In this document: piece by piece, positions 8,515 to 51,600 of the stretch | Position numbering within the stretch: position 1 is the stretch's first letter | Layout: every line of letters begins with the position of its first letter | Origin: Actinomycetota bacterium | GTDB lineage: Bacteria > Actinomycetota > CADDZG01 > JAHWKV01 > JAOPZY01 | DNA length: 64,000 nt | Reading direction: 5' to 3' | Assembly (NCBI GenBank): GCA_035765775.1 | Contig: DASTWV010000021.1 | Location: 1-64,000 of the forward strand | Program-made: the position numbers and the translations under genes | The notes under the pieces: model-generated | The model's input: only the letters and a program-made list of their open reading frames with translations | Told to the model about the DNA's origin: nothing | Database searches by the model: none

Positions 8515-10866
8515 ATGGGTTCGTGTCGCTCGCGGCGGGTGCATGTCGAGGTGGCCGGCATCGTCCAGGGGGTGGGCTTCCGGCCCTTCGTCCACGCGCT
8601 CGCCACCGGGCTCGGCCTGGGCGGCTTCGTGCGCAACGACCCCGAGGGGGTGACCGTCGAGGTCGAGGGCCCCCCGGGTGCGGTGGCCGCGTTCCTCACC
8701 GCGCTGGGGGAGCGGCCGCCGCCGCTGGCCCGGATCGAGTCGGTGTCCCAGGCCGAGGTGGATCCGGTGGGCGACGGGTCCTTCGCCATCGTGGCCAGCG
8801 AGGCCGCCGGGCGGCACCTGGCCCTCGTCTCCCCCGACGTCGCCACCTGCCCCGAGTGCCTGGCCGAGATCCGGGACCCGTCTGCCCGGCGGCACGGCTA
8901 CGCCTTCACCAACTGCACCAACTGCGGGCCCCGCTTCACCATCACCCTCGACATCCCCTACGACCGGCCCAACACCACGATGGCCGCCTTCCCCATGTGC
9001 GGCCCGTGCCGGGCCGAGTACGAGGACCCGGCCGACCGGCGCTTCCATGCCCAGCCGGTGGCGTGCCCGGTGTGCGGGCCGGCGGTATCGATGGGCTCGC
9101 TCTCCGGGCAGGAGGCCATCAAGGCGTGCGCCGCCGCGCTGGGCGGCGGCTCCGTGGTCGCCCTGAAGGGCCTGGGCGGCTACCACCTGGCGTGCGACGC
9201 CACCAACGAGGAGGCGGTGCGCACCCTGCGCTCCCGCAAGGTGCGGGAGGAGAAGCCGTTCGCGCTCATGGTGGGGAACCTCGGCGTGGCCCGGGAGTTC
9301 TGCGAGGTGGGGGAGCACGAGGCGGGCCTGCTGGAGCACTACCGGCGCCCGATCGTGCTGCTCCGGCGGTCCCCTTCGCCCTCGGTCGGGATCGCCCCGT
9401 CGGTGGCCCCGGGCAACCGCTTCCTGGGGGTCATGCTGGCCTACACGCCGTTGCACCACCTGGTGCTGGACGCCTGCGCCTCGGTGGCGGGGCGGGCGGC
9501 GGTGCTGGTCATGACCAGCGGGAACCGCTCCGACGAGCCGATCGCCTACCGGGACGCCGACGCCCGAGAGCAGTTGGGGCCGATCGCCGACGTCATCGTG
9601 GCCCACAACCGGCCCATCCACATCCGCTGCGACGACTCGGTGACCCGCTCGTTCCGGGGGGCCGAGTACCTCCTGCGCCGGTCCCGGGGCTATGCCCCGG
9701 AGCCGCTGCTGGTCCCCGATGCGTCCGGGGAGCCCGCGTTCGGCGAGCCGGTGCTGGCGGTGGGTGCCGAGCTCAAGCACACGTTCTGCCTGGGCTCCGG
9801 CCGCCGGGCGTTCGTGTCCCACCACATCGGCGACCTGGAGAACTGGGAGACCATGGCCTCGTTCATCGAGGGTGTGGAGCACTACTGCCGCATCTTCCAG
9901 ATCGCCCCGTCGGTGGTGGCCTACGACCTGCACCCCGAGTACCTGTCGACCAAGTGGGCGATGGACCAGGTCTCGGGCGAGGGCGTGCCGGTACCCGGGG
10001 TGGACCTGGAGGGTTGCGACCTGGTGGGGGTGCAGCACCACCACGCCCACATCGCCTCGTGCCTGGTGGACAACGGGGTGGCCGGGCCGGTGATCGGCCT
10101 GGCCCTGGACGGCACCGGATGGGGCACCGACGGCACCCTGTGGGGCTGCGAGGTCCTGGTGGCCGACCTGGCGTCGTTCCGCCGGGCCGGGCACCTCCGG
10201 GTGCTCCCCCTGGCGGGTGGGGCGGCGGCGATCCGAGAGCCCTGGCGGATGGCGGCGGTCTACCTGCAGGCGGCCTTCGGCTCGTCGGCCCCGGACCTGG
10301 CGTTGCCGGTCGTCCAGGAGACCGGGAAGCGCTGGGGGCCGGTGCTCGAGGCGGCGGCCAAGGGGATCAACGCCCCCCCGACGTCATCGGCGGGGCGGCT
10401 CTTCGACACCGCCGCCGCAGTCGCCGGGCTGCGCAGCCGGGTGGTCTACGAGGGCCAGGCGGCCATCGAGCTGGAGCAGGCCGCCGACCCCTCGGAGCGC
10501 TCCGCCTACCCGTGCCCGGTGGCTGCCGGGCCGGACGGGGTCCTGGTGCTGGACGGCGTGGCGCTCATCGGGGCGCTGGCGGAGGAGGTGCTCGGGGGCG
10601 TCCCTCTGGAGACGGCAGCCGCCCGCTTCCACAACGGGCTGGCGGCGGCGCTCGTGGCCTCGTGCGAGGCGGTGGCGGGCTCCAGCGGGCTCTCGGTGGT
10701 GGCGCTGTCCGGCGGGACGTTCCAGAACCTGCTGCTGGCCGAGCGGGTGAGTGCGGGCCTGGAGGCGGCGGGCTTCACGGTCTACCGCCACCGGCGGGTG
10801 CCGGCCAACGACGGCGGCATCTCGCTCGGCCAGGCGGCGATCGCCGGGGCGCACCGCTCTCCATGA
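8515..10866 (+). CDS. hypF: Carbamoyltransferase HypF ([NiFe]-hydrogenase maturation)
   Basis: A full-length 783-residue HypF, which converts carbamoyl phosphate into the carbamoyl-adenylate used to make the CN ligands of the [NiFe] centre. Residues 5-90 are an acylphosphatase domain with GFRPFV (Arg23) and RNDPEG (Asn41). Two zinc fingers follow, with Cys112/115/134/137 and Cys162/165/184/187. A YrdC-like domain spans ~200-385 and a Kae1-like domain ~400-783, with HHHAH and VALSGGTFQN motifs. All parts are intact. No other hyp gene or hydrogenase gene is in the window, and both neighbours concern glycan synthesis, so its partners must be elsewhere. Confidence 0.96.
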   Translation: MGSCRSRRVHVEVAGIVQGVGFRPFVHALATGLGLGGFVRNDPEGVTVEVEGPPGAVAAFLTALGERPPPLARIESVSQAEVDPVGDGSFAIVASEAAGRHLALVSPDVATCPECLAEIRDPSARRHGYAFTNCTNCGPRFTITLDIPYDRPNTTMAAFPMCGPCRAEYEDPADRRFHAQPVACPVCGPAVSMGSLSGQEAIKACAAALGGGSVVALKGLGGYHLACDATNEEAVRTLRSRKVREEKPFALMVGNLGVAREFCEVGEHEAGLLEHYRRPIVLLRRSPSPSVGIAPSVAPGNRFLGVMLAYTPLHHLVLDACASVAGRAAVLVMTSGNRSDEPIAYRDADAREQLGPIADVIVAHNRPIHIRCDDSVTRSFRGAEYLLRRSRGYAPEPLLVPDASGEPAFGEPVLAVGAELKHTFCLGSGRRAFVSHHIGDLENWETMASFIEGVEHYCRIFQIAPSVVAYDLHPEYLSTKWAMDQVSGEGVPVPGVDLEGCDLVGVQHHHAHIASCLVDNGVAGPVIGLALDGTGWGTDGTLWGCEVLVADLASFRRAGHLRVLPLAGGAAAIREPWRMAAVYLQAAFGSSAPDLALPVVQETGKRWGPVLEAAAKGINAPPTSSAGRLFDTAAAVAGLRSRVVYEGQAAIELEQAADPSERSAYPCPVAAGPDGVLVLDGVALIGALAEEVLGGVPLETAAARFHNGLAAALVASCEAVAGSSGLSVVALSGGTFQNLLLAERVSAGLEAAGFTVYRHRRVPANDGGISLGQAAIAGAHRSP

Positions 10867-10867
10867 G

Positions 10868-10958
10868 CCCACATCATTCGGGGGACTTTTGTCCCACTGG
10901 CCGGGACAAATGTCCCCGACCTCAGCGGACCCGGAGCGCCCCCATCATCGCAGGTCAC
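10868..10958 (+). repeat. Dispersed two-hairpin intergenic repeat, copy 1
   Basis: An approximately 90-nt element: CACATCATTCGGGGGAC opens it, then two palindromes GGGACTTTTGTCCC and GGGACAAATGTCCC separated by 7 nt, then CCCGACCTCAGC and finally CATCATCGCAGG. The reverse complement of 21928-22015 matches it closely along its length. It begins right after the hypF stop and lies in a convergent intergenic region. Confidence 0.85.
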
Positions 10959-11007: not shown

Positions 11008-11811
11008 TCACTTGACGCACAGGGCCAGCATGTTCGTCCCGTCCTTGACCTCGACGGAGCTGAAGCCGGCCGCCTGCACGATGCGCTCCACCTCGGGCGG
11101 CGTGTAGAAATGCGGGCGGGCGGAATTGTCGATGGCTTTGCGGCCCTTTTCGGCGCACTGGATGAAGGACTGCAGGTAGTCGTCCGACAAGATGTTGGGG
11201 AACATCAGCAGGGCCCGCCCCCCGGGCACCAGCATGCGGAGCACGTCGCGCATGAGCAGGAAGGCATCCTCCTTCTCCAGGTGCTGCAGGACCAGGATCG
11301 AGTAGACCAGATCCACCGACGCCGCCTGCACGCTCGGCACCCGGGTGTCCAGGCTCAGGGCGTAGCGCACGTTCTCCTGGTCCTTCAGGCGCTCCCGGGC
11401 CATGCTCAACATCCCCGACGATGCATCGACGACCCAGAGGGTGCGGCACAGCGGCGCCACGTACAGGGCGATGCGGCCCACCCCGCACCCCAGGTCCAGC
11501 ACGGTCAGGTCCGGGGTCAGCAGCGGCGCGATCAGCTCCGCGCAGTCCGCTTTCCCGGAGGATTCGAAGAACTCGGCGTCGGCCACGTCCAGGATCACCG
11601 AGCGCGCCGCGGCGAGGTCGCCCGGGAACCAATGGTCGCCGTATTTCAACTCGCTGCCGGCACCGGAATCACCGGGGGCGCAGTCTGTACCGGTGTCCCC
11701 GGCCCCGGCCAGCCGGCCGGCCAGGCGGGCGAGGCCGCGGGCCGCGGCCCGCGAGGCCTGGGCGGCCATCCGCCGCCCCGCCACCACTTCGTTCCGCTCC
11801 CGCCAGGCCAT
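11008..11811 (-). CDS. SAM-dependent class I methyltransferase
   Basis: A 267-residue enzyme. Motif I is TVLDLGCGVGRIALYVAP near residue 103, followed by VVDASSGML (acidic residue binding the ribose), VDLVYSILVLQHL (motif for beta4) and LVPGGRALLMFPN. This is an intact Methyltransf_11/25-type core. The 55-residue N-terminal part is Ala/Arg/Gly-rich with no recognisable domain. The gene follows the FkbM-type methyltransferase by 23 nt on the same strand, and a TAAGAT box in that gap may give it its own start of transcription. The substrate is unknown; the location in a glycan locus suggests sugar methylation. Confidence 0.87.
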   Translation of the reverse strand: MAWRERNEVVAGRRMAAQASRAAARGLARLAGRLAGAGDTGTDCAPGDSGAGSELKYGDHWFPGDLAAARSVILDVADAEFFESSGKADCAELIAPLLTPDLTVLDLGCGVGRIALYVAPLCRTLWVVDASSGMLSMARERLKDQENVRYALSLDTRVPSVQAASVDLVYSILVLQHLEKEDAFLLMRDVLRMLVPGGRALLMFPNILSDDYLQSFIQCAEKGRKAIDNSARPHFYTPPEVERIVQAAGFSSVEVKDGTNMLALCVK

Positions 11812-20034: not shown

Positions 20035-21217
20035 GGGAAGCTCCCGCCTGGGCCGGCTGGCCTTCGTCACGCCCCGCTTCGGCGACGACGTCGTCGGCGG
20101 CTCGGAGGCAGTCCTGCGGGAGGCGGCCGAGGGCCTGGCCGCCCGGGGGTGGGAGGTGGACGTGCTCACCACCTGCGCCCGGGACCACTACACCTGGCGC
20201 AACGTGTACCCCGAGGGGGTGAGCCGCACCGCCGGCCTCACGCTGCGCCGCTTCCCGGCGGCGGCCCCGGCGGTGGCGGAGCGGGACGCCCTCGGGCGGC
20301 GGATCCTGCTCGGGCTCCCGCTCTCCTACGTCGACCAGTGTGCCTGGATCAACGCCACCCTCCGGGTGCCCGCTCTGTTCCGGTACCTGCTGGAGCGGGC
20401 GGGGGACTACCGGGCGGTGGTGGTGTCGCCCTACCTCTCCTGGCTGACCGTGGCGTGCGTGGAGATCGTCCCGGAGCGCACGGTGCTGGTCCCCTGCGTC
20501 CACGACGAGTCCTATGCCTACCTGGACCTCTTCCGCCACGCCCTGGCCCGGCCGGCCGCCCTGTGGTTCCTCTCCGAGCCCGAGCACGACCTCGCCCACC
20601 GGCTGGCGACCCTGCCCCGGCACACGGTGACCGGGGCGGGCGTCGAGGTGCCGGGCTCCTACGACCCTGCGGGGTTCCGCCAGAAGTACGGGATCACCCG
20701 CCCCTTCGTGCTCTACGCCGGCCGCCGGGAGCCCGAGAAGGGATGGGACCGGCTGCTGGCCGGCTTCGAGCAGGCGGTCGAGCGCCATGGCGTGCCCTTC
20801 GACCTGGTCACCATCGGGGCGGGCGAGCCGATCATCCCGGCGTCGATCGCCCCCCGGGTCCGGGACCTCGGCTTCCTGGACGAGGCCGACCGCAACGACG
20901 CCTTCGCCGCCGCCGCCGCCTACCTGCAGCCGAGCGCCAACGAGAGCTTCTCGCGCACGGTCATGGAGGCGTGGCTGGCGGGGACGCCGGTGATCGCCAC
21001 CGCTTCCGGGGCGGTCGTCCGCTGGCACTGCGAACGCTCCCAGGGCGGCCTGGTCTACGCCGATGACGCCGAGCTGGCCCAGTGCCTGCTGCTGGTGGCC
21101 GAGGCCCCACGGGCTGCCCGGGCGCTCGCCGAACGGGGCCGGGCGTACGTCCTGGAGGAGTATCCCTGGAGCCGGGTGCTGGACCGCATGGAGGCGGCGC
21201 TGGAGACGATGGCGTGA
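20027..21217 (+). CDS. GT4-family glycosyltransferase
   Basis: A 396-residue enzyme (from GTG 20027; an ATG at 20000 would add nine residues and overlap the previous gene by 35 bp, with no better ribosome binding site). The first strand is GRLAFVTPRFGDDVVGGSEA, with the GGSE loop of GT4 enzymes. The donor domain has FVLYAGRREPEKGWDRLLAG and a PSANESFSRTVMEAWLAGTP glutamate motif. LSYVDQCAW and LVPCVHDESYAYLDLF resemble the enzymes at 1307 and 25000 in their middle part. The stop overlaps the next start as GTGA. Confidence 0.91.
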   Translation: MAEGSSRLGRLAFVTPRFGDDVVGGSEAVLREAAEGLAARGWEVDVLTTCARDHYTWRNVYPEGVSRTAGLTLRRFPAAAPAVAERDALGRRILLGLPLSYVDQCAWINATLRVPALFRYLLERAGDYRAVVVSPYLSWLTVACVEIVPERTVLVPCVHDESYAYLDLFRHALARPAALWFLSEPEHDLAHRLATLPRHTVTGAGVEVPGSYDPAGFRQKYGITRPFVLYAGRREPEKGWDRLLAGFEQAVERHGVPFDLVTIGAGEPIIPASIAPRVRDLGFLDEADRNDAFAAAAAYLQPSANESFSRTVMEAWLAGTPVIATASGAVVRWHCERSQGGLVYADDAELAQCLLLVAEAPRAARALAERGRAYVLEEYPWSRVLDRMEAALETMA

Positions 21218-21861
21218 GGGTGCTGGTGGCCGGCCCCTACCCGCCCTCAGCCGATGTCGCCGCCCCGGTGACCGTCCGGACGGTCCGCCGCCTGCTGGCC
21301 GAGGGCCATGACGTGACCGTGGTCTCCCCGCTGCCCAGCGCCGCCGAGTTGGTGGCCCCGCTGGCCGGGGGGCCGGGAGCAGCCTGGCTGGGCCGGGCCG
21401 CCCGGCGCTACGACGCCCTGCACCTGGTGGTGAGTACCGGCATCCTGTTCCGGCCCGAGCTGCCCAAGGCCCGGCGGGTGGCCGAGGGCGGCCTGATGGC
21501 GGCGGCCCTGCGGGCCTGGAAGCGCACCAGCGTGGACCTGGGCGACCTGAGCGAGGTGCCCGGCGGGGGCGGCGGCGTTTCGGGACGCCTGGTGTGGCAG
21601 GCGGTGGGGACGGTGCTGGTGTCGGCCGAGCCGGTGCGCAACCACGTGGTGACGGTGCTGGGCGTGGCGGCGAGCAAGGTGGTTGTGTCGCCGGATGCCG
21701 AGGCGCCGGCCCAGGCACCGGCCGGGCCGCTTCGGCGGCAGGGGGGTGAGGGCCCGGCCCCCGCCCTCGACCCATGGGACCCCGAGACGGTCCCGGACTG
21801 GGCGACGCTGCAGGAGCAGATCCGCACCCGGGCGGCGGCGGACCGGGGCGACGCTCCTTAG
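21214..21861 (+). CDS. Isolated glycosyltransferase N-terminal-like domain
   Basis: A 215-residue protein starting at GTG 21214 (GTGA overlap). It begins like the acceptor domain of a GT4 enzyme (RVLVAGPYPPSADVAAPVTV, then LLAEGHDVTVVSP) and contains YDALHLVVSTG, but it ends after about 170 residues in a Pro/Ala-rich tail. There is no donor domain: the glycine-rich GR.xxxKG strand and the EX7E motif are both missing. No frameshifted donor domain follows in the next 500 bp. It is either a truncated enzyme or a regulatory or acceptor-binding subunit. Clean codon use and intact coupling to the previous gene argue against recent decay. Confidence 0.7.
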   Translation: MRVLVAGPYPPSADVAAPVTVRTVRRLLAEGHDVTVVSPLPSAAELVAPLAGGPGAAWLGRAARRYDALHLVVSTGILFRPELPKARRVAEGGLMAAALRAWKRTSVDLGDLSEVPGGGGGVSGRLVWQAVGTVLVSAEPVRNHVVTVLGVAASKVVVSPDAEAPAQAPAGPLRRQGGEGPAPALDPWDPETVPDWATLQEQIRTRAAADRGDAP

Positions 21862-21927
21862 CCGGATACGTGCGTTGGGTACGGACCGTTCTGGGGCTTT
21901 CTGCCGTCAATTTGGCGGAAAACCGCC

Positions 21928-22015
21928 CTGCGATGATGTGGGCGGCGGCCCCTCGGCTGAAGTCGGGGACTTTCGTCCCGCCCAGTGGGACAAATGTCCC
22001 CCGAATGATGTAGGC
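21928..22015 (-). repeat. Dispersed two-hairpin intergenic repeat, copy 2
   Basis: The inverted second copy of the element at 10868-10958. On the plus strand it contains GGGACTTTCGTCCC and GGGACAAATGTCCC, again 7 nt apart, flanked by CTGCGATGATGTG and CCGAATGATGTAGGC. As with copy 1, it lies between the ends of two convergent genes (21861 and 22368). A further small hairpin, GGCGGAAAACCGCC, lies just before it near 21914-21927. Confidence 0.85.
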
Positions 22016-22367
22016 GGCGGCCCGGTTGGCGCCTGACCCGAAAATTCCTGGACCGGCAGGCCAACGCAGCGCTGCTCCCCAAGTCCCCCAACCGGTCGCC
22101 GCCGCGGCTTGACTATCTATAGGAGCATCCCAGAACTCGTCCGACTTGGGCAGACGAGGGGTCGTATGGGCTGAGGGCTGAGGATTCGGACAAGCCCGAC
22201 CTGGGTACGGCGATACGGCTGCTGCGGGAGGACCAATCATGGCGGAGGTCGTTGGAGATGCCGTTGCGGAGGCCACCCGGCCGCGGCGCCGCCGGGCGCG
22301 ATCGGGGGTCACCGCACTGGTAGGGCTGGCCGCGGTTGCGGTCACCATCCGTCGTAGATCCCCTCGC
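22016..22367. other. Intergenic stretch without a supported gene
   Basis: This 350-bp region lies between convergent genes. It contains a TTGACTATCTATAGGAG stretch near 22109-22125 that looks promoter-like but lacks a properly spaced partner. ATG 22239 has a fair ribosome binding site (GGGAGGACC) and opens a frame whose first 43 residues include a short hydrophobic stretch (VTALVGLAAVAVTI). That frame then runs antisense through the downstream glycosyltransferase without stopping, so I do not call it a gene. Confidence 0.4.
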
Positions 22368-23450
22368 CTAGGGCCCGGCCTCCAGCCGGGCGAGGTGCTG
22401 CACGAGGGTCGCCCGGGCGGCCTCAGGCCGGAACGCCGCCAGCCGATCCCGGCCCCGGGCCACCAGCGACGCCCGCAGCGCCCGGTTCGTGAGGACCTCC
22501 AGCATCGCCTCGGCGGCCACGCCCGCCCCGTCGTCGGGGCCGATGAGCAGGCCGGCGCCGGCGAGCGTCTCGGGGATCGCCCCCGCCGCCCGGGCCAGGA
22601 CGGGCTTGCCGAACGACATCGCCTCCAGCAGGGGCACGCAGAAGCCCTCATGCCCGCTCAGGGTCACCACGGCATCGGCCCGCCGGTAGTAGGCGGCCAG
22701 CTCGGCGTCGCTCACCGGGCTCCGGATGATGCCGCAGCGGGTGAGGTTCATCTCCTCGATGAAGCACTGCAGGCACTCCTTGTAACGGGGCAGGCGGGCG
22801 GCTCCCACCAGGAACAGGTTCGATTCCGGCAGCAGGTAGGTGACGAGGATGTGGTAGGCCTGCAGCAGGACATGGGCCTGCTTGTGGGGCAGCAGTTGCC
22901 CCACGAACAGGAGCGTCGATCCCGGGACCTCGGCCTGCCAGCGCACGGTTTCCTCGTGCGGCGCCACTGCCAGGAGCCGATCGGGGTCGACGATCAGGGG
23001 GGCGACCCCGATCCCGGTGTAGCCCAGGCCGGCGAGGTCGGCGGCGTTGAACGCCGAGACGGCCAGGGCGAGGCGTACCCGGGGACGGAGGGCGGCGAGT
23101 TCCCGCCTGCCGTCCACCAACCGGTCGGCGAAGCCCGGGTCGTAGGGGGCGAAGGGTTCCGCGGGCGACATGTTGTGGTACACGATCGCCAGGGGCTCTG
23201 GGCGCTCGTGCAGGAATGCGGTGACCACCGGCTCCCCGATCGAGGCGTGGTAGAGCAGGGCGTCGGCCGGCCCGGCAGGCGGCGGGTAGCGGTCCAGGGG
23301 GAGGACGTCGCCGGCGAGCTGGGGGTCGATGTAGCGGGCGAAGATCCACGACGGCTGGCCCCGGGCCCGCACCAGGCGGGCGATCTCCAGAGCCTGCGTG
23401 GTAATGGCGTCGCCCGGAGCGGCGGCCACGATGACCTGGTCGATGCGCAT
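22368..23450 (-). CDS. GT4-family glycosyltransferase
   Basis: A 360-residue enzyme beginning at ATG 23450 with MRIDQVIVAAAPGDAITTQA. The acceptor domain contains ALLYHASIGEP and IVYHNMSPAEPF. The donor domain has TLLFVGQLLPHKQAHVLLQA and SGHEGFCVPLLEAMSFGKPV. This is the same subfamily as the enzymes at 18874 and 23936. The gene stands alone on the minus strand, divergent from the operon starting at 23526. A TAGGCT box 8 nt before the ATG suggests a nearly leaderless transcript. The extended in-frame region upstream of the ATG is antisense to 23526-23939 and is not part of the gene. Confidence 0.9.
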   Translation of the reverse strand: MRIDQVIVAAAPGDAITTQALEIARLVRARGQPSWIFARYIDPQLAGDVLPLDRYPPPAGPADALLYHASIGEPVVTAFLHERPEPLAIVYHNMSPAEPFAPYDPGFADRLVDGRRELAALRPRVRLALAVSAFNAADLAGLGYTGIGVAPLIVDPDRLLAVAPHEETVRWQAEVPGSTLLFVGQLLPHKQAHVLLQAYHILVTYLLPESNLFLVGAARLPRYKECLQCFIEEMNLTRCGIIRSPVSDAELAAYYRRADAVVTLSGHEGFCVPLLEAMSFGKPVLARAAGAIPETLAGAGLLIGPDDGAGVAAEAMLEVLTNRALRASLVARGRDRLAAFRPEAARATLVQHLARLEAGP

Positions 23451-23458
23451 GACGGCGA

Positions 23459-23464
23459 AGCCTA
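23459..23464 (-). promoter_or_regulatory. -10 box of short-leader GT transcript
   Basis: TAGGCT on the minus strand ends 8 nt before ATG 23450. No Shine-Dalgarno sequence fits in the interval. Confidence 0.35.
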
Positions 23465-23495
23465 GACGGCAAATCGCAACCCGGGCGGGCACGCA

Positions 23496-23501
23496 TAGAC
23501 T
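23496..23501 (+). promoter_or_regulatory. -10 box of the 23526 operon
   Basis: TAGACT lies 24 nt before ATG 23526, leaving room for the ribosome binding site GAGGAGGG at 23509-23516. No clear -35 was seen. Confidence 0.35.
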
Positions 23502-23525
23502 TTCCCCCGAGGAGGGCAGCGAGAG

Positions 23526-23939
23526 ATGGCGAGCCCCGAGGGCGGTGCAATTGATTATGAGGCGGTGGTGGAGCGCGCCCGGCGGGCGGCGGCGGCCAAA
23601 CGGGCGAGCGGGGAGGTGCCCGACGGCACCGGGGCGGCCCTGGACCGCCTCTTCGGCGAGGTGGCTCCCGGCGGCGCCCGGATGTCGGGCGACGGGCTGG
23701 AGGCGGTGGTCGAGATGCTCGGCCGGTACCACTTCGACCCGGCCATCCCGGTGCAGTCCCCGCCCGGCTGGCGGGGCCGGCTGACCGGGCTGGTGAAGCA
23801 GGCCCTGCAGCCCATCACCGCCTGGCAGCTCCGCCACCTCACCGACCAGCTCAACGCCTACCACCTGGCCGAGATCGAGCTGCTCCGGCGCCTGGTCGAC
23901 GAGCGGGAGGGCGCAGGGCCGGCCTCGCCGGAGTCCTGA
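23526..23939 (+). CDS. Small helical protein preceding a GT4 gene
   Basis: A 137-residue protein, ATG 23526 with GAGGAGGG nearby. Residues 85-130 (GWRGRLTGLVKQALQPITAW, then QLRHLTDQLNAYHLAEIELL) form a basic-aromatic amphipathic helix followed by a helical end. This corresponds to the layout in the proteins at 353 and 18395 and to N-terminal parts of some actinobacterial glycan methyltransferases. The N-terminal half is charged and helical (VVERARRAAAAKRASGE). There is no catalytic domain. The stop codon overlaps the CTG from which the next glycosyltransferase appears to start. A role as partner of that enzyme is inferred from the arrangement only. Confidence 0.75.
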   Translation: MASPEGGAIDYEAVVERARRAAAAKRASGEVPDGTGAALDRLFGEVAPGGARMSGDGLEAVVEMLGRYHFDPAIPVQSPPGWRGRLTGLVKQALQPITAWQLRHLTDQLNAYHLAEIELLRRLVDEREGAGPASPES

Positions 23940-49425: not shown

Positions 49426-51600
49426 ATGCTGCGTAGGACGATGCTTCGGCCGTTGGCCCTGATTGCCGGGTGGGCTGTGGTGCTGGGCCTCCTGGCCGGG
49501 GCTCCGGCCCGGGCGGCCACGCCGACGGTGCTGACGCAACGCTGGTCCCAGTCCCTGGGCTCGGCGCCGGACCAGTGGTCCTCCCCGGTCATCGCCAACC
49601 TCACCGGGGGCGGGAACGCGGTCGTGGTCGGCAGCGAGAACGGCAACGTGTACGCCTTCGACGGCTCGGGCAACGCCCTGGCCGGGTGGCCGGTGCACAT
49701 TGCCAACGCCGTCGACTCGAGCCCGGCGGTCGGAGACCTCGACGGCAACGGCCAGCAGGAGGTCGTCGTCGGCATGGGGTCGCTCAACGTCTCTGGGCAG
49801 GGTGGCCTGGCGGTCATCAACGCCAACGGTCAGGTGCGCTGCACGTACCTGACCCAGACGGTCGCCGGCACCTCGGCGGTGTTCAACGCCCCGGCCATCG
49901 GCGACGTGGTGGGCAACGGCCGCAACCAGATCGTGTTCGGCTCCTTCGACCACAACGTCTATGTGCTGGACAACAACTGCCACGTGCTGGCGTCCTACAA
50001 CAACGCCGACACCATCTGGTCGGCGCCCGCCCTGTACGACGCCCAGCACTCCGGCCAGGACGACATCTTCATCGGCGGCGACTCCAGCGCCGGGGGCGGG
50101 GGCACGTACCACAACGGCGGCCTCTACCGGGCGCTCGCCTACCGGGGCGGCACGCTGGTGGAGCTGTGGGAGCGTTCCAGCCAGGAGGACTTCCAGGGCG
50201 GTTCCTCCATCGGCGCGATTGACGGCAGCGGCCGCATGGCGGTCGTGACCGGGTCAGGCGCCTACTGGTGCCGGCATTTCAACCAGTGCTCGGACTCGTC
50301 CAAGGTCTGGGCGTTCTACCTCGACAATGGCGCCGACGTCCCCGGTTGGCCGAAGGCGACCACCTACAACACGTTCCTCTCGGCTCCCTCCCTGTCGGAC
50401 CTCGACGGCGACGGGCGGGCCGACGTCGTCATCGGCTCGGTCAACTACGTCAACGACAACCCCACCGGCGGCGCGGTCGACGCCTTCCTGAGCTCGACGG
50501 GCTACACCCGGGAGACCTGGATATCCCCGGTCGAGGTCGAGGGCTCGCCCGTGGAGGGCAACTTCACCGGCGCCGGGCCTCAGGTGGCCGTCGATGGGGA
50601 GATCCTCGACAAGAACCTGAACCCGGTAGCCACCTTCAACGGTGCCAACAAGACGGCGGTCGCCGTGGGCCAGCTGGGGTCCGGTCCCGCCCTGGTGACG
50701 GCGAAACCCGGCTCCCTGATTGCCTACAACCTGCCCGGGCTGTCCGGCGCGTCCTGGCCGATGTTCCAGCAGAATCCGCAACGGAGCGGCACCAGCCAGT
50801 CGGCGGTCTTCACGATCTCGTGCAATGCCGGCTACCGCCTGGGGGCGGCCGACGGCGGCATCTTCAACTACGGCGACGCCAGCTTCGACGGCTCTGCCGG
50901 CGGCATCCACCTGAACTCCCCGGTGGTGGGGATGGCCGGCGCCCCACCAGCAACTGGGGGCAACGGGTACTGGCTGGTGGCCAGGGACGGCGGCATCTTC
51001 AACTACGGCGTCGCCGGCTTTCACGGCTCGGCGGGCGGCATCCACCTGAACCAGCCGGTGGTGGGCATGGCCTCCACCGCGTCGGGTGGCGGCTACTGGC
51101 TGGCGGCCAGTGACGGCGGAATCTTCAACTACGGCGCACCCTTCGACGGTTCGGCCGGCGGCATCCACCTGAACTCGCCGGTGGTGGGCATCGCCTCGAC
51201 CCCCTCGGCCACCGCCACCCCGGGCGGCAACGGCTACTGGATGGTGGCCAAGGACGGCGGCATCTTCAACTACGGCGTGGCGGGCTTCCACGGCTCGGCG
51301 GGCGGCATCCACCTCAACTCGCCGATCGTGGGCATGGCGGCGACGCCGGATGGTGGCGGCTACTGGCTGGTGGCGGCCGACGGGGGCATCTTCAACTACG
51401 GCGATGCCGGCTTCCACGGCTCGGCGGGCGGCATCCACCTGAACTCGCCGATCGTGGGCATGGCGGCGACGCCCGGCGGCGGCGGCTACTGGCTGGTGGC
51501 GGCCGACGGCGGCATCTTCAGCTACGGCGACGCCCAGTTCTGCGGGTCGGCCGGCTCCATCCGGCTCAACTCGCCGATCGTCGGCATGGCGGCCGGCTAG
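49426..51600 (+). CDS. Secreted beta-propeller-like protein with C-terminal repeats
   Basis: A 724-residue exported protein. ATG 49426 has AAGGAG exactly 6 nt upstream (another ATG at 49420 has none). The signal peptide is MLRRTMLRPLALIAGWAVVL followed by GLLAGAPARA, with likely cleavage after ARA. Residues ~35-450 carry FG-GAP/VCBS-like units (SSPVIANLTGGGNAVVVGSE, SSPAVGDLDGNGQQEVVVG, DLDGDGRADVVIGS) typical of a calcium-bound propeller. Residues ~468-724 hold six repeats of the GYWLVA-DGGIFNYG-GSAGGIHLNSP(V/I)VGMA type. No sortase, membrane or lipobox signal is visible, so it may be a secreted or cell-surface associated adhesin or matrix protein. Confidence 0.9.
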   Translation: MLRRTMLRPLALIAGWAVVLGLLAGAPARAATPTVLTQRWSQSLGSAPDQWSSPVIANLTGGGNAVVVGSENGNVYAFDGSGNALAGWPVHIANAVDSSPAVGDLDGNGQQEVVVGMGSLNVSGQGGLAVINANGQVRCTYLTQTVAGTSAVFNAPAIGDVVGNGRNQIVFGSFDHNVYVLDNNCHVLASYNNADTIWSAPALYDAQHSGQDDIFIGGDSSAGGGGTYHNGGLYRALAYRGGTLVELWERSSQEDFQGGSSIGAIDGSGRMAVVTGSGAYWCRHFNQCSDSSKVWAFYLDNGADVPGWPKATTYNTFLSAPSLSDLDGDGRADVVIGSVNYVNDNPTGGAVDAFLSSTGYTRETWISPVEVEGSPVEGNFTGAGPQVAVDGEILDKNLNPVATFNGANKTAVAVGQLGSGPALVTAKPGSLIAYNLPGLSGASWPMFQQNPQRSGTSQSAVFTISCNAGYRLGAADGGIFNYGDASFDGSAGGIHLNSPVVGMAGAPPATGGNGYWLVARDGGIFNYGVAGFHGSAGGIHLNQPVVGMASTASGGGYWLAASDGGIFNYGAPFDGSAGGIHLNSPVVGIASTPSATATPGGNGYWMVAKDGGIFNYGVAGFHGSAGGIHLNSPIVGMAATPDGGGYWLVAADGGIFNYGDAGFHGSAGGIHLNSPIVGMAATPGGGGYWLVAADGGIFSYGDAQFCGSAGSIRLNSPIVGMAAG
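50829..51600 (+). repeat. Coding tandem repeats (six units)
   Basis: Six units of about 120-150 bp encode the DGGIFNYG...GSAGGIHLN...VGMA motif. Adjacent units 4-6 (51225-51600) are nearly identical in DNA, so recent duplication or gene conversion is likely. Spacers between units differ by a few residues (for example SATATPGGN versus TPDGGG). Confidence 0.85.

Follow-up and report, generated by a model that had tools for sequence, protein, structure and literature searches.

A probable REP-like repeat built of paired palindromes in an actinobacterial genome, and its possible role as a two-way boundary at gene 3′ ends

The window analysed here, a stretch of 64,000 nucleotides from an Actinomycetota bacterium (contig DASTWV010000021.1 of assembly GCA_035765775.1), contains two copies of a short palindromic element, each lying in a gap between converging genes. 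The core of copy 1, a pair of palindromes with outer arms (10867–10929, forward strand), starts directly past the stop codon of hypF (8539–10866, forward strand; HypF_C_2, Sua5, zf-HYPF and acylphosphatase domains), and a methyltransferase gene (11008–11787, reverse strand) converges on it from the other side. Within this core, palindromic box 1, GGGACTTTTGTCCC (10882–10895), and palindromic box 2, GGGACAAATGTCCC (10903–10916), stand 21 bp apart from centre to centre, and further along comes a tail, CATCATCGCAGG (10943–10954, forward strand), that belongs to a young subfamily only. Copy 2 has the opposite orientation, with its core at 21953–22015 (reverse strand), box 1 at 21987–22000 and box 2 at 21966–21979 (both named in element orientation), the CATCATCGCAGG tail at 21927–21938 (reverse strand), and the young subfamily's upstream module, with the outer end GGATGCTCCTATAGATAGTCAAGC, at 22050–22129 (reverse strand). 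It occupies a gap of 506 bp between an open reading frame (ORF) without a Pfam match (21214–21861, forward strand) and a glycosyltransferase gene (22368–23732, reverse strand), both of which point towards it.

Aligned with each other, the two cores form an inverted repeat of 63 nt with 89% identity (10867–10929 against 21953–22015), and over a longer stretch of 83 nt the copies are 85% identical. The first-pass annotation of this DNA had described two near-identical inverted copies, each with two GGGAC-N4-GTCCC palindromes 7 nt apart and each set between converging 3′ ends, and the analysis bears this out for both copies. Its further description of a two-hairpin element of ~90 bp holds in part: the length is right for the young subfamily, but the unit common to all copies is ~51 bp, and both palindromes are indeed present, but in RNA the fold favoured by energy is a single long hairpin. 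Rfam gave no match within the window. Tandem or near-tandem repeats, with periods of about 100 bp and 126 bp, occur elsewhere in the window, at 1–241 and 50821–51595.

The genome searched for further copies is a 3.6-Mb draft in 62 contigs, 95.8% complete, in which three WhiB genes point to an actinobacterium. With the 83-nt stretch as query it returned 48 matches, some places being matched on both strands. Intact copies, defined by the pattern GGGAC-N4-GTCCC-N7-GGGAC-N4-GTCCC with at most 2 mismatches, number 42, against 0 for the reversed pattern that served as control, and with ~6 further copies that are interrupted by an insertion sequence (IS) of the IS1111 type the family comes to ~48 copies. 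The mismatch histogram is 31/10/1/1; a search at 3 mismatches adds a single place, the same as in the control, and up to this limit no tail of decayed copies rises above chance. Single boxes number 91, against 6 for their reversed-pattern control, and the counts of single boxes and of pairs are both far above chance. Where two boxes lie within 80 bp of each other in the fetched loci, 41 of 42 such pairs are spaced by 21 bp from centre to centre. A third perfect box, GGGACGTTGGTCCC, lies at C13:33814–33827, separated by 52 bp from the normal pair upstream of it (C13:33728), and is the sole box found near a pair with another spacing (65 bp).

The copies differ in how much they share beyond the boxes. 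The 28 closer ones have mostly a common spacer, ACTGSCC, and part of their flanks in common; in the remaining 14, divergent copies the spacers are mostly unrelated, and the boxes are kept together with weak outer arms, of which the left reads GAACTGG or GAGGTGG and the right CCACCTCG. Pairwise identity among these 14 reaches 95% in the four 5-nt blocks, against 60% in the arms, 53% in N4, 46% in N7 and 30% in the flanks; the copies were drawn with a pattern that fixes the blocks, and the contrast between blocks and spacers is meaningful because the tail is missing at three mismatches. Their N4 segments have about 14% GC in a genome of 71% GC. From this identity profile, the unit common to all copies is an imperfect palindrome of ~51 bp, in which two perfect GGGAC-N4-GTCCC palindromes are set at a distance of exactly 21 bp, and the ~90-bp form with CATCATCGCAGG and an upstream module is a younger, composite subfamily. 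The upstream module, 100–300 bp long, is present at 10 places in the genome, nearly always next to a core; as regards the traits of a miniature inverted-repeat transposable element (MITE), its outer end recurs and no matching opposite end was identified.

Genomic contexts were drawn from stretches of ~8 kb annotated by an in-house gene finder that had been trained on this genome, with which single gene boundaries may be wrong. By this annotation 22 of the 42 copies lie between convergent genes, 15 between tandem and 5 between divergent ones, whereas the remaining gaps of 60 bp or more in these stretches, 160 in all, divide into 13 convergent, 94 tandem and 53 divergent ones. Convergent gaps are therefore strongly enriched (22/42 against 13/160, Fisher P 1.2e-9) and divergent gaps depleted (5/42 against 53/160, P 0.007), and the convergent share is alike in divergent (8/14) and close (14/28) copies. 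In tandem gaps, 13 of the 15 copies are nearer to the 3′ end of the upstream gene (P 0.007). Avoidance of promoters alone would predict 26% convergent among the convergent and tandem copies, as against an observed 22/37 (59%, P 1.8e-5), and the convergent excess is thus greater than such avoidance can explain. None of the 42 copies lies convincingly inside a gene, the copy at C9:143182 falling within a weak 1-kb ORF that we take to be spurious. The flanking genes examined (hypF, methyltransferase, aminotransferase, MerR, MoaA-like, dUTPase, AIR-synthase-like and protein kinase genes, among others) have no common theme. The first-pass annotation had named tens of copies at convergent ends as support for its reading and copies inside genes as a refutation; the former were found and the latter were not, and its suggestion of a dispersed element not tied to any gene stands. 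The copies in tandem gaps have no preferred orientation (8/15), and a reading as promoter or sRNA was dropped on this ground.

Beyond this genome, paired boxes were absent from all 60 relatives examined, and in one other genome of the same family, from a sister genus, the single box was not enriched (14 against 12 in the control). A repeat-specific pattern had 0 matches in 84,980 species genomes, a set in which the source genome itself may be masked, and 0 in viral contigs. The family is accordingly lineage-specific.

In form and location the element resembles the repetitive extragenic palindromes (REPs), short, dispersed, intergenic palindromes whose usual place is between convergent or unidirectional ORFs (PMC3733652), and it is very probably a REP-like dispersed repeat, as had been proposed. 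Like the REPs and BIMEs of the GTAG and CGTC families, its copies are short, palindromic, extragenic, dispersed and specific to one genome (PMC3733652), and they share with them a frequently dimeric build, a preference for convergent or unidirectional gaps and a use as IS targets (PMC3733652, PMC1525189). Unlike them, the family consists of two perfect 14-bp palindromes at an invariant spacing of 21 bp and has only about 48 copies. No GTAG or GT(A/G)G head flanks the palindromes in the 42-copy alignment, nor does a CGTC head, which in the CGTC-REP family stands at one end of an 8–9-bp stem (PMC3733652), occur there at the unit ends; the RAYT/IS200-type Y1 transposase (Y1_Tnp, PF01797) has no match in the 96%-complete genome. 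The resemblance to REPs thus lies in form and location and does not extend to head or transposase, for which reason we term the element REP-like and place it outside the GTAG and CGTC families. It extends REP-like repeats to an actinobacterium that has neither tag nor RAYT, and something else must then have spread the family.

A further point of analogy came from the interrupted copies. At five contig ends and one internal place the palindrome passes, always after the same base, into one and the same sequence; the internal copy is an insertion sequence of 1610 bp on contig 35 (L192:2378–3987), the junctions at contig ends are those of C43, C57, C49 (both ends), C35 and C19, with a left junction at the end of contig 19. 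The element sits in the palindrome at 6 or more places, at the target GGGGACATT^TGTCCC and with no duplication. Its internal copy encodes a DEDD transposase of the IS110 superfamily (PF01548, PF02371) and has 13-bp sub-terminal inverted repeats (ATGAGGGTCGGGC and GCCCGACCCTCAT), extensions of 7 bp on the left (TGAGGAT) and 3 bp on the right (AGG), and a non-coding region of 515 nt downstream of the transposase gene. These are the traits of the IS1111 family (DEDD transposase, sub-terminal inverted repeats of 11–13 bp, 7/3-bp extensions and a long downstream non-coding region; PMC11187229), to which the inserted element belongs, and the repeat family is the target of this IS1111-type element. 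Rfam gave no match within the IS. Just past the transposase gene, its non-coding region contains GGGACAT (L192:3518) and then GACATTTGAG (3542), which are suggestive as candidate guide segments and no more than that, since an 8-mer match to the target there has a chance of about 4% in shuffled sequence. The analogy with REPs gains from the insertion, as IS elements that target REPs are on record (PMC1525189): ISPa11, also of the IS1111 family, inserts exactly in the palindrome of Pseudomonas REPs, as the present IS does in its own target (PMC11187229, PMC1525189). ISPa11 and ISPpu9/10 are counterparts of the IS that uses the repeat, not of the repeat itself, and here the host is an actinobacterium and the target a different repeat.

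As to function, the reading we prefer, which we regard as evenly balanced between right and wrong, is that the repeat acts through RNA as a two-way boundary at gene 3′ ends. The element would serve in either orientation: transcription arriving from either side would yield an RNA able to form a single strong hairpin; there the transcript would be ended, or its 3′ end protected after Rho-dependent termination, with the outcome that converging transcription units are kept apart. We infer that the element is transcribed, that the RNA hairpin is its acting form and that transcripts are ended or protected there. In favour of this reading, beside the placement at convergent gaps and at the 3′ ends of upstream genes, 55-nt stretches of the copies are predicted to fold as RNA into one long hairpin of −16 to −42 kcal/mol, and both window copies fold better than shuffled sequences (z −1.7 to −3.1). 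The GC-rich hairpin expected of an intrinsic terminator is thus present, yet a U-tract past the hairpin (at least 5 T in 8 bases) was found on only 2 of 84 sides, and a scan around copy 1 found none. Covariation is likewise absent: pair counts for the long hairpin do not exceed those of shuffles, the box stems have no compensatory change and are never altered on both sides, and in the 14 divergent copies no covariation of N4 was seen (P 0.77 against shuffles). The bidirectional terminator suggested by the first-pass annotation therefore keeps the GC-rich hairpin and the convergent placement in its favour and lacks U-tract and covariation, and we consider it plausible. Should the repeats prove to be such boundaries, a high-GC genome would have in them a compact stop that works in both directions between convergent genes and needs no U-tract.

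Two other accounts have to be weighed against this one. The family might be a purely selfish repeat, REP- or MITE-like and functionless at its sites, in which the boxes are constant as the mobile master copies need them, old copies are quickly lost, and the 3′ ends of genes are simply where insertion harms least. Its restriction to one lineage agrees with this, as do the extra upstream and downstream modules borne by the composite young copies and the role of the palindrome as a hot spot for the IS1111-type element. Against it speak the failure to find a Y1 transposase in the genome, a convergent enrichment greater than promoter avoidance alone would give, and the want of decayed copies beyond chance at 3 mismatches, and we judge a wholly functionless repeat rather unlikely.

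The other account places the function in DNA rather than RNA. Constant sequence, AT-rich box centres and an exact spacing of two helical turns would be expected of a DNA-binding site rather than of an RNA hairpin, and the element may be such a site, bound by two protein dimers that share one face of the helix, since 21 bp make two turns, and that form a roadblock, or a chromosome-organising boundary, between convergent genes; we hold this to be a serious contender but on the whole somewhat improbable. The near-identity of the four 5-nt blocks in the 14 divergent copies beside spacers at 46% and flanks at 30%, the mismatch histogram without its decayed tail, the near-invariant spacing, the low GC of the divergent N4 segments and the missing covariation all fit such a site, although the constancy of the blocks could equally reflect selection for mobility in master copies. 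One candidate binder is a DosR-like protein. The box GGGAC-N4-GTCCC is identical to the core of the DosR/DevR operator consensus, and two DosR-like regulators are present in the genome, with 48% and 47% identity to DosR, both of which keep the recognition helix KTVKNYVS. Their loci, L217 and L218 (C13:6487–7119 and C23:54578–55219), are duplicated and have universal-stress-protein and sensor-kinase neighbours. Neither locus, however, has a perfect box pair, and the box-like sequences beside the L218 regulator are of the type GGGCC-N4-GGCCC, for which the OsdR consensus offers a comparison (PMC5069765). A possibly DosR-like protein that occupied the pairs as two phased dimers and so blocked the way would make of the repeat, dispersed as it is over the genome, a putative two-way transcription boundary at the DNA level between convergent genes, an arrangement that we think unlikely. 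The 42 natural variants, with constant boxes and invariant spacing set against free spacers, offer a means of testing the RNA hairpin against protein-bound DNA.

The same resemblance invites the notion that the pairs serve a DosR/DevR-type hypoxia regulon as operators that activate promoters, in favour of which are the box itself, with its AT-rich centre as in the DosR/DevR operator, and the two regulators with their stress-protein and kinase neighbours; but an ordinary DosR regulon was rejected as very improbable, because the near-perfect pairs, which unlike the operator are always paired, lie at gene ends rather than before genes, depleted between divergent genes and unoriented relative to genes, the flanking genes tested do not make up a hypoxia regulon, and the dosR-like loci carry no pair.

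The RNA-acting boundary, and the REP-like family at large, can finally be set beside a repeat from elsewhere. The general pair pattern was also found in metagenome-assembled genomes (MAGs) of Campylobacterota, among them Sulfurovum and Nitratifractor, where it belongs to a different repeat, TTGGAGCAGGGACTTCAGTCCC-N7-GGGACTGAAGTCCCTGCTCCAA, with up to 44 copies per genome (for example at loci L063–L071 and L077–L082). Like the window family, it consists of paired GGGAC-N4-GTCCC boxes in tens of copies and is enriched in convergent gaps (20/48 against 16/129, P 5e-5); unlike it, it has hosts of lower GC in another phylum, a spacing that varies (7, 8 or longer), and N4 segments that are mostly complementary, which lets the whole be read as a single long hairpin. 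The likeness is one of pattern, and the two repeats may work in the same way. In Trueperaceae, a pair GGGACATTCGTCCC-N7-GGGACGGATGTCCC occurs at L062:1656–1690 and L134:1717–1751 with small differences, inverted in one of them, apparently at matching positions in two species, with ABC-transporter genes on one side and a SulP-like gene on the other, and a universal-stress-protein-like ORF lies further along at the second of these loci.
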